Positions 25,895 to 33,509 of a stretch of DNA of 47,154 nt are shown here, piece by piece. The notes beneath the pieces are model-generated. The model was not told the origin of the DNA. It saw nothing but the letters and a program-made list of their open reading frames with translations, and did no database searches. Both the position numbers and the translations under genes were made by a program. The stretch's first letter is position 1. Every line of letters starts with the position of its first letter. The stretch is taken from IMG/VR virus record IMGVR_UViG_3300027126_000035, positions 1 to 47,154 of that record. One strand, written 5' to 3'. The stretch comes from a virus.

Positions 25895-27721
25895 TTATGG
25901 TCCTATATTATTGACTGGACTAAATGAGTAGCCCTTCGTATTGGTTACTAATCTTCTCATAAAATCTAAAGTTTGCTGCTGAAGCGCATTTTGTTGTTTC
26001 AATGCTTTAAGTTGCTGTTGATCTAAATCTCGTTGCTTAGTGCTAGAATCAAAAACATTAGCTAATAATGCTTTAGTAAGATCTGAATTTGTAGAAAGGA
26101 ATGTATTTGTAGTAACTGTCGGATTCGGTGCTTGTACAACTCTTACTGATTGAACTTGTGCGGATTTTTTAGTATTATCCTCTGTTGCAGTTGCTAGATA
26201 GGTTATACCAGCAGCAACAGCCAAAAGACCTAATCCAATCGGATTAGCAAAAAGAAATGTAGATAATCCAGTTAGAAGAGGGGCCATTTTCGCTATAGGA
26301 CCTATGTAACTAGCTAATGGAGCTAATGCACCCAAAAGACTTAAACTTGAAGATAGTATTAGTTTTAAGGCATCAGCTTGAGTTGTAGCATCATCGTCAA
26401 GGATTTTTTTAAATTCATCAAATGCAAAAAATCCCGCTGTAAGAGCTGTGCCAATACCTGCAAGGGATGCAACAATTCTCATAGAATCTGATCCGGCTAG
26501 TTTAGCATTTAACACTAAAGCCTTCTCCTTCAGTGTTTTTGCCGGGTCAGCTTTGGGGTTTGTAAGTGCGTTTGTTAAATTAAAAATTCTAGTATTTATT
26601 GCAGCTAGAGTAACCCCTGCGTTTATAGCAAGACCAATTGAGGTTGTAAAATAGTAAACTTGGCCTTCCATTTTAGCTAACATTTCAGCTAATTTACCAT
26701 TCATTTCAAACATGTGTAGGCCAATCTCTTTTTGAATGGCTTCTTGTTTTTTAATCTCTTCCGCTGTTTTATCTGCATTTATACTTTGAGGTGCTTGTGC
26801 TTTTAACTCACTAAAAGCCTTTAATACGCCAATATTCATACCTAGAACTTTTTCAACTCTAGCATACGCTACAGATGGAAGATCCCCTTGGCGAATAAAC
26901 TGTTGAAATAAATTTTCTGAGGTCATAGCCATTCTGGCTATGACTTGTTCCAAGCCTCCTAAAGATGGAGCAGCTTGTAATCCTGCCATTTCTCCAGTAA
27001 CTCCAAATTGAGCAAACTGTCTTAGCTTATCTCCTGTGAATAAAGAATTGATTACGCTTTCTAAGAGCTTTTGATTTCCCATTCCATATTTTGCAGTAAA
27101 TTCAGTTGTTAATGATGCTAGTTCTTTTGTTACTCCCATCATATTAAACTGAGTCATTTTATCGGCCAAAATATTAATGGAATCAACTAAGTAATCTGTG
27201 GATATTCCGTATTGATCTCGTGCGTTTTTAAGCTCTAAACTTAAGCTGTCCATTTGCGAAACACTTAATCCACCTTGAGACAATAGATCTTTTTGAAGTT
27301 GTAGCAAAGATCTACTACTCTCACCTGTTGCTCGCATTTCCAGTGCTAATTGGAATGTCTCTCTGGATAATCCTAAAGTTCCTGTGGACAATGCATCTAT
27401 GGCAGTATTTAAAGCTATAGTTGGGCCGAAATCTTGTCTAGCTCTTTCAACCATAGAATTAGCTCTTAAAGCCTTTTCTGATGATCCAAGTGCTAGTGCA
27501 GCTTTTTGAACTTGATTATATATTTGTTTTTGCTGGTTTATGTTATCATATAGAATACCCATGAAGGCAAATGGCTGCTGTACATTTCCGGGAATCTGTG
27601 CTATTTTATTTAATTGATCAATAAATCTAACAGAAAGTCTATTACTTTCTAAAGAAGCCTCATTACCATCCTGAATGGATTCTAATATATCAGATAGTAT
27701 TTCTTCCGCTGTTCTTGCCAT
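25895..27721 (-). CDS. Tape measure protein, 608 aa
   Basis: A long helical protein, close in length to T4 gp29 (590). It has coiled-coil-like segments over the first 300 residues and a hydrophobic part around residues 410-510 (SLAGIGTALTAGFFAF; SSSLSLLGALAPLASYIGPI; FANPIGLGLLAVAAGITYLA), as in tape measures that insert in the host membrane. The C-terminus is Gln-rich and coiled (QQQLKALKQQNALQQQ). It is followed directly by hub and spike genes. The start has a clear ribosome site, GAGGAAAAAG-ATG, inside the upstream gene (32-nt overlap). The gp26-like chaperone candidate lies about 3.5 kb upstream rather than adjacent. Confidence 0.8.
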   Translation of the reverse strand: MARTAEEILSDILESIQDGNEASLESNRLSVRFIDQLNKIAQIPGNVQQPFAFMGILYDNINQQKQIYNQVQKAALALGSSEKALRANSMVERARQDFGPTIALNTAIDALSTGTLGLSRETFQLALEMRATGESSRSLLQLQKDLLSQGGLSVSQMDSLSLELKNARDQYGISTDYLVDSINILADKMTQFNMMGVTKELASLTTEFTAKYGMGNQKLLESVINSLFTGDKLRQFAQFGVTGEMAGLQAAPSLGGLEQVIARMAMTSENLFQQFIRQGDLPSVAYARVEKVLGMNIGVLKAFSELKAQAPQSINADKTAEEIKKQEAIQKEIGLHMFEMNGKLAEMLAKMEGQVYYFTTSIGLAINAGVTLAAINTRIFNLTNALTNPKADPAKTLKEKALVLNAKLAGSDSMRIVASLAGIGTALTAGFFAFDEFKKILDDDATTQADALKLILSSSLSLLGALAPLASYIGPIAKMAPLLTGLSTFLFANPIGLGLLAVAAGITYLATATEDNTKKSAQVQSVRVVQAPNPTVTTNTFLSTNSDLTKALLANVFDSSTKQRDLDQQQLKALKQQNALQQQTLDFMRRLVTNTKGYSFSPVNNIGP

Positions 27722-30207: not shown

Positions 30208-31120
30208 GAATTGTTTGATTTAGAACATTGTATTTAACCTGTATTTGATAAGCACCTGTTAACGGACCGAATGTACCGTTTAGTACTGCGGGTAGTGTGT
30301 ATAGTGAGTTTGTGTCCCAGTTAAATAGTATGGTGTTATCTGAGGTAACCTCTGTTGTTGCCGATGTGTTTGCGAATGAACTAACTGTTACCCGCGCAGG
30401 GAGAGTGTAATCGTCGTTTAGTTTTACAATCTGAATTGATGGATTGACTAAAACTGAGTCTCTGAATATATTTTTTACTGCGGAATCAATCGTCTTATTG
30501 CCTAACATGAACTCTGTAGAAATCGTTAGATCTACTTTAGAACCTAGTTTTACATATTTGTTTCTTAGTTTGTTTGTTGTTTCTAAAAGTAAAGGTTCTG
30601 TAATTGTGTAGAATGTATCATCATATAGTTTGAATTCGTTGATGTATACAGCGTACTCAGAGCCAGCCACCATCTTTACTGTCCACACATCAATGTAGTT
30701 AGTTACGGTACTGGCTTGGTTAGCTATTACTGAACCATCATAAACTCCAGATAAATTGATAGTTCCATCAAGAACAACGGCATACTGTCCTGCCGCTACT
30801 TTATAAATACCGCTAGCATTTAGGTTTCCAGCAGGTGGATTATAATTAGATGCATTAAATGCAGAGTTTGTTGTTAGAGTAGCGGAATTAGCAAAGTTCA
30901 TTAAAATTACAGAACTAGCTAAAGTATTACTTATGAGATTATCAGAGTTTAATATCGTGCTTGGGCTTGTGTTACTCGTTAGTTTAAATATACTAACAGA
31001 GCTAATTTCGTAAGGGTCTTGATACTGCCCATCGTTAATAAAAAAAGATCTAAGGGCTACTTTTTGTAGAACTCCCGGACGGTTATGTCTTTCTACCACG
31101 GAAATATTATTTATTTGCAT
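30176..31120 (-). CDS. Hypothetical virion-type beta-rich protein, 314 aa
   Basis: Not recognised. The sequence is Ser/Thr/Asn-rich and strand-rich, with no cysteine cluster, membrane segment or catalytic signature. It could consist of several Ig-like or similar domains (for example SGIYKVAAGQYAVVLDGTIN and TGAYQIQVKYNVLNQTILSD). It starts 2 nt after the stop of the -1 extension of the gp26-like gene, behind an AAGGTATAGTT ribosome site that lies inside the last codons of that extension. Its 3' end overlaps the convergent primase by 32 nt. Likely a tail or baseplate component, by context. Confidence 0.55.
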   Translation of the reverse strand: MQINNISVVERHNRPGVLQKVALRSFFINDGQYQDPYEISSVSIFKLTSNTSPSTILNSDNLISNTLASSVILMNFANSATLTTNSAFNASNYNPPAGNLNASGIYKVAAGQYAVVLDGTINLSGVYDGSVIANQASTVTNYIDVWTVKMVAGSEYAVYINEFKLYDDTFYTITEPLLLETTNKLRNKYVKLGSKVDLTISTEFMLGNKTIDSAVKNIFRDSVLVNPSIQIVKLNDDYTLPARVTVSSFANTSATTEVTSDNTILFNWDTNSLYTLPAVLNGTFGPLTGAYQIQVKYNVLNQTILSDYLNLIVN

Positions 31121-31122
31121 AA

Positions 31123-31302
31123 CTATACCTTAGATCTTCTTTGTATTTCCTCCATCTCATTATTATAAGTTTGAAGGAACAATATTCGTTCTCTTAAAGT
31201 CGTAGTCTTAACATCCGAATAAGACATACCGACTTTATTTATAAGTATATAGGCATGATTAATTAGAGTTTCTAGATCTAAATTTTCTATCAACTCACGG
31301 TA
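31123..31302 (-). CDS. -1 frame extension of the gp26-like gene (59 codons, probable frameshift product)
   Basis: After the slippery heptamer at 31302-31308 the -1 frame is open for 59 codons to a TAG at 31125-31123, reading YRELIENLDLETLINHAYIL, INKVGMSYSDVKTTTLRERI, LFLQTYNNEMEEIQRRSKV. It looks like a real helical, charged protein segment. The zero-frame product would be 245 residues and the frameshifted one about 301. Fused chaperones of this kind (gpG/gpGT in lambda and equivalents in contractile tails) help fold the tape measure. The next gene begins 2 nt after this stop, which also argues it is translated. A TTG start overlapping the zero-frame TGA (TTGA) is the alternative, but no ribosome site precedes it. 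Confidence 0.6.
   Translation of the reverse strand, partial: YRELIENLDLETLINHAYILINKVGMSYSDVKTTTLRERILFLQTYNNEMEEIQRRSKV
31236..31243 (-). promoter_or_regulatory. TATAAATA box upstream of the 314-aa gene
   Basis: The minus strand reads CTTATAAATAAAG, matching the T4 late promoter box, about 116 nt before the ATG of the 314-residue gene but inside the -1 extension. The distance is long and the octamer recurs by chance in AT-rich DNA. Confidence 0.2.
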
Positions 31303-32027
31303 AAAAAATCAGCACCTAGAGGTAGGTTAATTACATTAGCATGCCCACAAGACTCACAATCGTACCTAACCTTAGTCTGAACACCGTATTCTGACAATCC
31401 AATTGCATTAGTGATTGTGTGCATATCTTTCAAGGGAACTCTAGGATCCTTTAAAAACTTAGATATTAGCACAGGATCGTCTGAATCTTGGATTTCAACT
31501 ACGAATCGCCATAGATTATCAAAAACTCGAATATCGTCATTTATGTACTTTTCATCACTAACTCTGGGGTAGCGTATCTTTACTTTAACTTTGGTTACTG
31601 GTAAGGTTATTTCTTGAATTTCCTGAATAGCATCATCAAAATAAGATATCGGCAAATCAGACAGTTTAAAGTTTAATTTGTTCTCAAAGGTGCATTTACC
31701 ACAGTTTACAGATACACTGTAATTATCACCATATGAAATCTCTCTTAGCTTTAAAATCAAATAAAGTTTATCTATTAGAATCAAGTCACCAACATCAACC
31801 CCAGAGATGCATCTAGCAAGTATAACATTTATGGTGTCTTGTTTATCTTTTCTAGCTAAAACCATTGCCTTTTCATCTTCAAAGGTCATTGGTCTGATGG
31901 TCACACTTTTTGAATTATAAAACTTGCACTTAGATGGAAGTTCTATAACGGTTTCTACTTCCGTTGGGAGATTGGCAAAAATATCATCTAAATTAAACTG
32001 CTTACCTAAAGGTATATTATTATCCAT
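31290..32027 (-). CDS. Baseplate/tail assembly protein, T4 gp26-like, 245 aa
   Basis: Recognisable features of the T4 gp26 family: VTIRPMTFEDEKAMVLARKD (residues 42-61) and two CxxC pairs, Cys109-Cys112 (VNCGKC) and Cys224-Cys227 (CESCGH), that would form a zinc ribbon. The C-terminal NLPLGADFF segment runs into the slippery site. In T4, gp26 belongs to hub assembly; family members act as tail assembly proteins with the tape measure. The gene starts 66 nt from the divergent uvsW gene behind a palindromic promoter region. The length of 245 fits the family (T4 gp26 is 208). Confidence 0.75.
   Translation of the reverse strand: MDNNIPLGKQFNLDDIFANLPTEVETVIELPSKCKFYNSKSVTIRPMTFEDEKAMVLARKDKQDTINVILARCISGVDVGDLILIDKLYLILKLREISYGDNYSVSVNCGKCTFENKLNFKLSDLPISYFDDAIQEIQEITLPVTKVKVKIRYPRVSDEKYINDDIRVFDNLWRFVVEIQDSDDPVLISKFLKDPRVPLKDMHTITNAIGLSEYGVQTKVRYDCESCGHANVINLPLGADFFTVS
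31302..31308 (-). promoter_or_regulatory. Slippery heptamer for programmed -1 frameshift (T TTT TTT)
   Basis: On the minus strand the zero frame reads GAT TTT TTT ACC GTG AGT TGA. The seven Ts are exactly positioned as X XXY YYZ, four codons before the stop. Five nucleotides downstream GAGTT could pair with AACTC about 21 nt later, with a self-complementary TAGATCTA nested inside, a possible but weak stimulator. A homopolymer T7 at the end of the zero frame with a long open -1 frame is the arrangement expected for tail chaperone frameshifting. Confidence 0.6.
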
Positions 32028-32093: not shown

Positions 32094-33509
32094 ATGAAAA
32101 TATTTATAAAAAATATAACCTCTCGAATCGAAACAGATAATCCACGGCTACTTAAAGCTCTTGTAGATAGATATACTCATTCGATTCCGGGAGCTAATTA
32201 CTCAAATGCATACAAGCGTGGGCATTGGGACGGTAAAAAATATTTCATTCACCCGCGCACGGGAGAGTTTAAAACAGGATTATTGGATCTAGTTTTAGCA
32301 GATCTAAAACTAATAGAGTGCGAGCCAGAACTTATTTACGAAGAACCAATAGAATCAAACATTAAACTTCAGGATCATACCTTTGACGGATGGGATCTTC
32401 ACGATTACCAAGAGGCTCTTGTTGGTCAGGCTCTAGATAATAAGCGTTGTGTAATAAAATCTCCGACAGGCTCTGGTAAGACATTGATCATGGCTTCGGT
32501 CATCAAGGCGTTCGGCCCACAGGCAAAAATCCTCTGTCTGTTCACCAAGAAACAGTTGATCAACCAGACCTACGAGTTCTTGGTCAAGAAGTCCCCCGCA
32601 GGCGTAGAACTAACCAAGACAAAGGAATTTTCCGTAGGAGTTTCGTTTTCGGAAGGCTTTGAATACGGTAACATAATGTTATGTTCTGTTTACAGCCTAG
32701 AGCGTTTAATTGGCACTCCGCACGAGCGTCCAGATGTTTTAATTGTAGATGAATGCCATGAGTTCTCTAAAGGTAAACTTACATCTGAAGCAATCAGTTC
32801 TTTCCCCACAGCTAAATATCGTATTGGATTTACTGCAACGCCACCTACCGAAGCAATTCCGAAATATACCTTGCATGGTGGGTTGGGGCCTGTTATAACC
32901 GAAGTAGACACATCTTCCTTAATCGAAAGGGGAATGCTGGCAAGGCCATATGTTCAAATACTACCGCTACACACTTCTGCTGATGACCATCTTGATATGG
33001 ACTATCGTACAGTTTACGATAATTACATTGTTAACAACGGAACCAGAAACCAAGCGATCACATCTATTGTGGAGACTGTTAAAGCAAAAACTCCAGCAGC
33101 TAAAGTATTAATTTTAGTAAACAGTTTGGAACACGGTCAAAACTTAATGCAAAAGATTCCAGAGGCGAAGTACCTGCAAGGCTCTGACGATCTGCGTGAA
33201 CGAAACAAGATTATCAAAGACTTTAAAATTAAGAACGAATTTAAAGTATTGATTGGAACTAAGATTCTGGAGACGGGTGTTAACATTCCAGAAATCACTC
33301 ACTTCATAAATGCTAGAGGTTTGTTCTCCGAGATCGCCACAATACAGGCACTTGGCCGTGCGCTTAGACTTAACGATTTTTCCGAAAAAGTTTATGTGTA
33401 CGACTTCTATGATGAGGTAAAATATTTAAATACTCATTCAAGAAAAAGAAAAAGTACTTATAAGAATCAAGGACATGTAATAGAAGTATTACCTAGAATA
33501 GAATACTAA
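32094..33509 (+). CDS. uvsW: UvsW-type superfamily 2 DNA/RNA helicase, 471 aa
   Basis: Helicase motifs in order: motif I SPTGSGKT (residues 123-130), Ia TKKQLINQT, motif II DECH (219-222), motif III GFTATPP (246-251), motif IV/V region VLIGTKILETGVNIPEITHF and motif VI QALGRALR. The N-terminal 100 residues (RYTHSIPGANYSNAYKRGHW then DGKKYFIHPRTGEFKTGLL) match the UvsW substrate-binding domain. In T4, UvsW unwinds R-loops and branched DNA and drives the switch from origin to recombination-dependent replication. The length is close to T4 UvsW. Bases coding for motif I and after (about 32461-32640) are clearly GC-richer than the rest. Confidence 0.92.
   Translation: MKIFIKNITSRIETDNPRLLKALVDRYTHSIPGANYSNAYKRGHWDGKKYFIHPRTGEFKTGLLDLVLADLKLIECEPELIYEEPIESNIKLQDHTFDGWDLHDYQEALVGQALDNKRCVIKSPTGSGKTLIMASVIKAFGPQAKILCLFTKKQLINQTYEFLVKKSPAGVELTKTKEFSVGVSFSEGFEYGNIMLCSVYSLERLIGTPHERPDVLIVDECHEFSKGKLTSEAISSFPTAKYRIGFTATPPTEAIPKYTLHGGLGPVITEVDTSSLIERGMLARPYVQILPLHTSADDHLDMDYRTVYDNYIVNNGTRNQAITSIVETVKAKTPAAKVLILVNSLEHGQNLMQKIPEAKYLQGSDDLRERNKIIKDFKIKNEFKVLIGTKILETGVNIPEITHFINARGLFSEIATIQALGRALRLNDFSEKVYVYDFYDEVKYLNTHSRKRKSTYKNQGHVIEVLPRIEY

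Follow-up and report, generated by a model that had tools for sequence, protein, structure and literature searches.

Programmed -1 ribosomal frameshifting in the genes of tail assembly chaperones is textbook knowledge (Xu, Hendrix and Duda 2004, cited in PMC9024508). The proteins gp26 and gp51 of phage T4 have been listed as hub assembly chaperones (PMC3004832), and their identification as the tail chaperones of T4 is reported by Vladimirov, Gautam and Davidson 2022 (doi 10.1016/j.virol.2021.11.003). According to two papers that cite this work, a short gene coexists with a long fusion gene in some T4-like phages (PMC10885494), and the -1 signals already described for T4-like TAC-N genes include poly-T sites (PMC12846349).

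The gene analysed here is located on the minus strand of a viral DNA of 47,154 nucleotides (IMG/VR record IMGVR_UViG_3300027126_000035, the whole of which is referred to as the window), and very probably it encodes a tail assembly chaperone of the T4 gp26/gp51 family, with programmed -1 ribosomal frameshifting as its mode of expression. The majority of ribosomes would end at the zero-frame stop and release a short form of 245 aa, and a minority would move back by one base on T TTT TTT, with the Phe-tRNAs re-pairing upstream on TTT TTT, a slip that is probably aided by a downstream stem-loop; the slipped ribosomes would then read 59 more codons to give a long form of 301 aa. By analogy with gpG/gpGT of phage lambda, the joint task of the two forms would be to hold the tape measure protein and to bring in tail tube subunits. 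The occurrence and the rate of frameshifting, as well as the chaperone role of the products, are what we infer from the computational evidence.

The locus would resemble lambda gpG/gpGT in that a short and a long form are made from one gene, with a -1 slip near its 3' end and a C-terminal extension, and in the related phages SP-15 and syn9 the gene is also placed just before the tape measure gene. However, the window gene belongs to the PF12322 family, has two CxxC pairs, is not beside a tape measure gene and has a slip site of the type T TTT TTY, whereas the slippery site of lambda is G GGA AAG. Tail assembly chaperone genes usually, but not always, immediately precede the gene for the tape measure protein, and T4 gp26 is another exception. 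The best tape measure candidate in the window is an ORF of 608 aa (25895-27721, minus strand) with weak ApoL/phasin-like matches, about 3.5 kb away from the gp26-like gene.

The features of the locus are collected in Table 1. The zero frame ends with GAT TTT TTT ACC GTG AGT TGA, in which the heptamer occupies the X XXY YYZ register and is separated from the stop by three sense codons. From 31308 onward the -1 frame has no stop before its TAG, another ORF begins 2 nt past this TAG, at 31120, and the long product has 242 + 59 = 301 aa. When the window ORFs were re-read, the coordinates, the register, the lengths of both products and the -1 frame of 59 codons ending 2 nt before the next gene, all of which had been proposed by a sequence-only reading of this DNA, were found to be right. 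Runs of seven T occur only 4 times on the minus strand in 47 kb. The long product, used as query, matched PF12322 (T4 base plate protein family) with an E value of 1.5e-23 and 84 bits, versus a curated cut-off of 24.5, covering positions 10-218 of the 219 of the model, and the short form matched positions 15-234 of 282 of phrog_150 (E 2.3e-29). A UvsW-like helicase gene is found near the gp26-like gene, as in T4.

Table 1. Features of the gp26-like locus and their positions in the window.
Feature	Position	Strand	Basis
gp26-like zero-frame gene (ATG at 32027, stop TGA at 31292-31290); short form of 245 aa with two CxxC pairs, putative TAC-N/gpG role	31290..32027	-	PF12322, phrog_150
Slippery heptamer T TTT TTT (consensus of relatives T TTT TTY)	31302..31308	-	In register at 85/85 distinct loci
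Predicted stimulatory stem-loop	31266..31296	-	Window MFE versus synonymous null
CATGCCTATATA (consensus GAAGCCTATATA), with near-zero synonymous variation	31246..31257	-	Codon columns, 72 clusters
-1 extension of 59 codons past the heptamer plus TAG (31125-31123); gp51-like C-terminal domain	31123..31308	-	Frame openness, profile match, AlphaFold2

Relatives, which are metagenomic, were obtained by scanning IMG/VR by protein and then by profile; after removal of duplicates there were 85 distinct loci, which form 72 clusters below 85% nucleotide identity. An in-register T TTT TTY followed by an open -1 extension was present in 85/85 of them, down to 36-40% protein identity, and since both elements are found in every distinct relative, the pairing of heptamer and -1 ORF is far beyond chance. 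The distance from the heptamer to the zero-frame stop ranges from 10 to 25 nt, and the extension is a conserved domain of 57-67 residues with a consensus of roughly ELxExxxLDxLLLEAYILVKxxxFTYxDVKxMTRxERxxFL. The alignment of relatives had been suggested by the sequence-only reading, which held that loss of the T-run together with retention of a downstream frame having its own start would speak against frameshifting; no such case was found among the relatives, and the run and the frame are conserved together. T TTT TTY is the only candidate slip site common to all relatives. The alternative A AAT TTT, present in many of them, was discarded, being absent where the preceding codon is GAT, AGT, TCT or GGT, as it is in the window.

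Part of the conservation of the T-run follows from the FF dipeptide, which is itself conserved in the protein, T4 gp26 included, and for this reason a stricter test at the level of codons was needed. The codon ahead of FF (AAT, GAT, AGT, TCT or GGT) ends in T in 72/72 clusters and the first Phe codon is TTT in all 72 as well. In the rest of the gene, two-fold T/C codons of a comparable kind carry T in 70% of cases, and no single column exceeds 86%. The second Phe codon, the third base of which is free in T TTT TTY, is TTT in only 27/72 clusters. Judged from these codons, the wobble pattern is the one that would be expected of selection on a slippery heptamer. By sequence criteria the -1 frame is also coding. 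All 72 clusters keep it open over 55 codons or more, in comparison with 0/72 for the zero and +1 frames, and differences among clusters by codon position (0.39/0.25/0.50) are distributed as in coding DNA.

These data bear directly on other explanations of the locus. The downstream ORF could be a small gene in its own right, either with a start of its own or read by ribosomes that re-initiate past the zero-frame stop, and databases do annotate such pieces as genes (BSV9_gp13 of syn9, SP15_046 of SP-15 and the 'gp51' of cyanophages), while in LR756511 an ATG of the -1 frame overlaps the stop (TAATG). However, no conserved start codon was found in the extension across the 72 clusters, 32 of which lack ATG, GTG and TTG among the initial 26 codons of this frame (ATG is present in only 2), and an SD-like sequence precedes any start in only 2/72; a separate gene with its own start was rejected on these counts. 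Moreover, conservation of the extension sets in at FF, before any start codon, and the wobble constraint at the T-run would have no explanation if the gene were separate, which makes a separate gene very improbable.

Transcriptional slippage, in which the RNA polymerase adds or drops a U on the T-run and mRNA in both frames results, has likewise very little chance of being correct. Homopolymer runs can cause polymerase slippage and the run of the window has seven T, but 45/72 clusters have only TTTTTTC, and six T are short for this process, which in addition needs neither the codon register nor the downstream RNA stem, both of which are seen. Homopolymers are error-prone as well, and the true gene could be a single in-frame ORF of 301 aa broken by an assembly error; nevertheless, the same frame break occurs at the same codon in 85 distinct assembled loci, most of them with TTTTTTC, and also in isolate genomes of other lineages. 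The independent assemblies refute this last explanation, the probability of which is close to nil.

Programmed frameshifting is further consistent with the predicted RNA structure. A stimulatory RNA structure downstream of the slip site is common, although not obligatory, at programmed -1 frameshift sites, and in the folding predictions a stem-loop tends to form just 3' of the heptamer, more than the protein sequence demands. It begins 5 nt past the heptamer in the window and about 8 nt past it in most relatives. The MFE in the window is -8.0 versus a mean of -2.4 for the synonymous null (p 0.007), and p<0.05 was reached under the amino-acid-preserving null in 35/72 clusters, including the window, the stem-loop thus not being universal. 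The strongest peak of local stability in the gene (mean z -1.9) corresponds to the 48-nt windows that start at +6/+12 nt from the heptamer start, and a second, smaller peak is present at +66 to +72 (z -1.3), with z near -0.2 over most of the remaining gene. Stem sequence and register vary among subgroups, and the stem is weak in several relatives (L023, L038, L086, L110). The 15/51 stem fits the TTC group, with 71% of cells paired versus 37-58% when the partners are slid, but only 53% of the cells of the TTT group are paired; therefore, the register of the stem has drifted, and one fixed consensus stem for all relatives was rejected. RNAalifold gave no consensus pairs. An SD-like stimulator conserved upstream of the slip site was not found either (GGAG is present in 19/72 clusters and longer motifs in no more than 1).

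In the long ORF only two stretches show hardly any synonymous changes: GAA GCC TAT ATA and, within the heptamer, TTT. The former belongs to the GAAGCCTATATA element, situated inside the coding sequence of the extension about 50 nt downstream of the heptamer, 3' of the stem-loop, and found at the same place in L002-L143. The codons at +17 to +20 are GAA in 63/64, GCC in 67/70, TAT in 70/72 and ATA in 69/69 clusters, whereas the fraction of the top codon has a median of 0.58 when 98 columns are considered. This sequence could tentatively be considered a new second cis element that would work with the stem-loop as an unusual slippage stimulator or regulator, for example if it bound a phage factor linking frameshifting to tail assembly or formed a tertiary contact, although this proposal is rather doubtful. 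In syn9 this element was not found. A role of GAAGCCTATATA as a general promoter motif was rejected, GCCTATATA occurring 8 times elsewhere in these contigs versus 6.1 expected, and no link to the T4-like motif TATAAATA was established.

Comparison of both forms with the T4 proteins indicates, at the level of sequence profiles, that the long form corresponds to gp51 and the short form to gp26, because the coverage of phrog_150 and the profile alignment through the C-terminus match gp51. The long form reaches position 273 of 282 of phrog_150 and the short form position 234, compared with 280 for T4 gp51 and 235 for T4 gp26. In a single comparison of profiles, the long form aligned to the end of gp51 with an E value of 6.7e-6, and the C-terminal parts alone gave, also in a single comparison, an E value of 2.7e-4, a modest homology. 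The AlphaFold2 model of the extension consists of four helices (mean pLDDT 92), and that of the short form has a mean pLDDT of 88, both folds being predicted with confidence. The best fold match of the short-form model in BFVD is the SP-15 baseplate hub (E 4.9e-18). 'Baseplate hub' proteins of other phages are also among its best matches, and Aeromonas phage 25 gp26 is in the list. The BFVD matches of the extension model are weak (all with E > 0.1); P-HM1 gp51 and several entries named 'tail assembly chaperone' are among them. An uncultured phage protein of 293 aa (A0A6J7X6V4) matches both models. The fold search against the PDB gave no match at E <= 0.001, and the PDB sequence search yielded nothing useful.

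The window gene shares its Pfam family with T4 gp26 and gp51, its short form being similar to gp26 and its putative frameshift product to gp51. However, T4 has two separate, divergent genes, with TTC TTT and no -1 ORF at gp26, whereas here a single gene would make both proteins. Two PF12322 genes were found in T4 and two T4-type phages (3/3), in contrast to one in the window record and 16 others (eleven relatives, SP-15, LIS04, Atu_ph07, PAC2 and syn9), a count in which several metagenomic records are fragments and SP-15, Atu_ph07, PAC2 and syn9 are complete. Neither a slippery site nor a -1 ORF was present in the T4-type gp26 genes examined, in which FF, where kept, is written TTC TTT. A T TTT TTY followed by a -1 extension was also detected in the distant phages Atu_ph07, RAS14, PAC2 and Synechococcus phage syn9. 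Cyanophages (Kyanoviridae) such as syn9 have the T TTT TTC and the -1 extension in common with the window, but their gp26 and 'gp51' are annotated as two genes; in syn9 the heptamer lies just ahead of the gp26 stop and the extension abuts a large tape-measure-like gene. What is annotated as 'gp51' in syn9 (BSV9_gp13, L166 7176-7391) makes up part of this -1 extension of its gp26-like gene. The TAC loci of Vandenendeviridae and Andersonviridae (PMC12846349) likewise show a poly-T -1 frameshift at the end of a myophage TAC-N gene, but they belong to other phage families, have a GTTTTT slippery motif and are likened to the window by the frameshift site only.

The sequence-only reading had also anticipated that the window gene would link the gp26/gp51 pair to the gpG/gpGT scheme. 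This link holds, on the basis of the gp51 C-terminal alignment and the contrast between one and two genes, but it is not new, because gp26 and gp51 were identified as T4 chaperones in 2022 and poly-T slip sites are cited in T4-like chaperone genes; both the frameshift principle and the link are already known. To these sources the present analysis would add a systematic conservation test, the one-/two-gene contrast, a -1/+1 switch, the stem-loop and the candidate second cis element. The T4 pair is placed within the general tail-chaperone scheme, and in the records tested the phages outside the T4 group would make both forms from one gene, mostly by -1 and apparently by +1 frameshifting in the SP-15 group. 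An evolutionary swap between frameshifting and gene duplication, in either direction, becomes directly testable. In addition, the 'gp51' of at least one cyanophage would be an annotation fragment of a frameshift product, and a practical rule for the annotation of gp26 genes in metagenomes is provided.

Several further observations were made in these genomes. The gp51-like extension is in the +1 frame in SP-15 (L065 6551-6874), where the gp26-like gene lies between the tail tube and tape measure genes, in LIS04 (L064 6578-6886), in Streptococcus phage GXN1 (L160 3647-4015) and in the uncultured LR756508 (L067 3710-4012), and from their sequences these four phages seem to use +1 (or -2) frameshifting. 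In the jumbo phage LR756511 (L066 3660-3932), an in-register T TTT TTC coexists with the -1-frame ATG that overlaps the zero-frame stop; this phage may use both routes or represent a transition between them. In the window, 17 copies of the T4-type late promoter motif TATAAATA were counted versus 8.8 expected, most of them on the minus strand, a count reached in 1 of 100 shuffles, and one of the sites (32101-32108, minus strand) is upstream of the gp26-like gene. The host search gave one genome contig only, QCKN01000003.1, a 130-kb contig from a Prochlorococcus single-cell genome assembly that carries one of the relatives (L148) and constitutes a possible host hint for the marine relatives.
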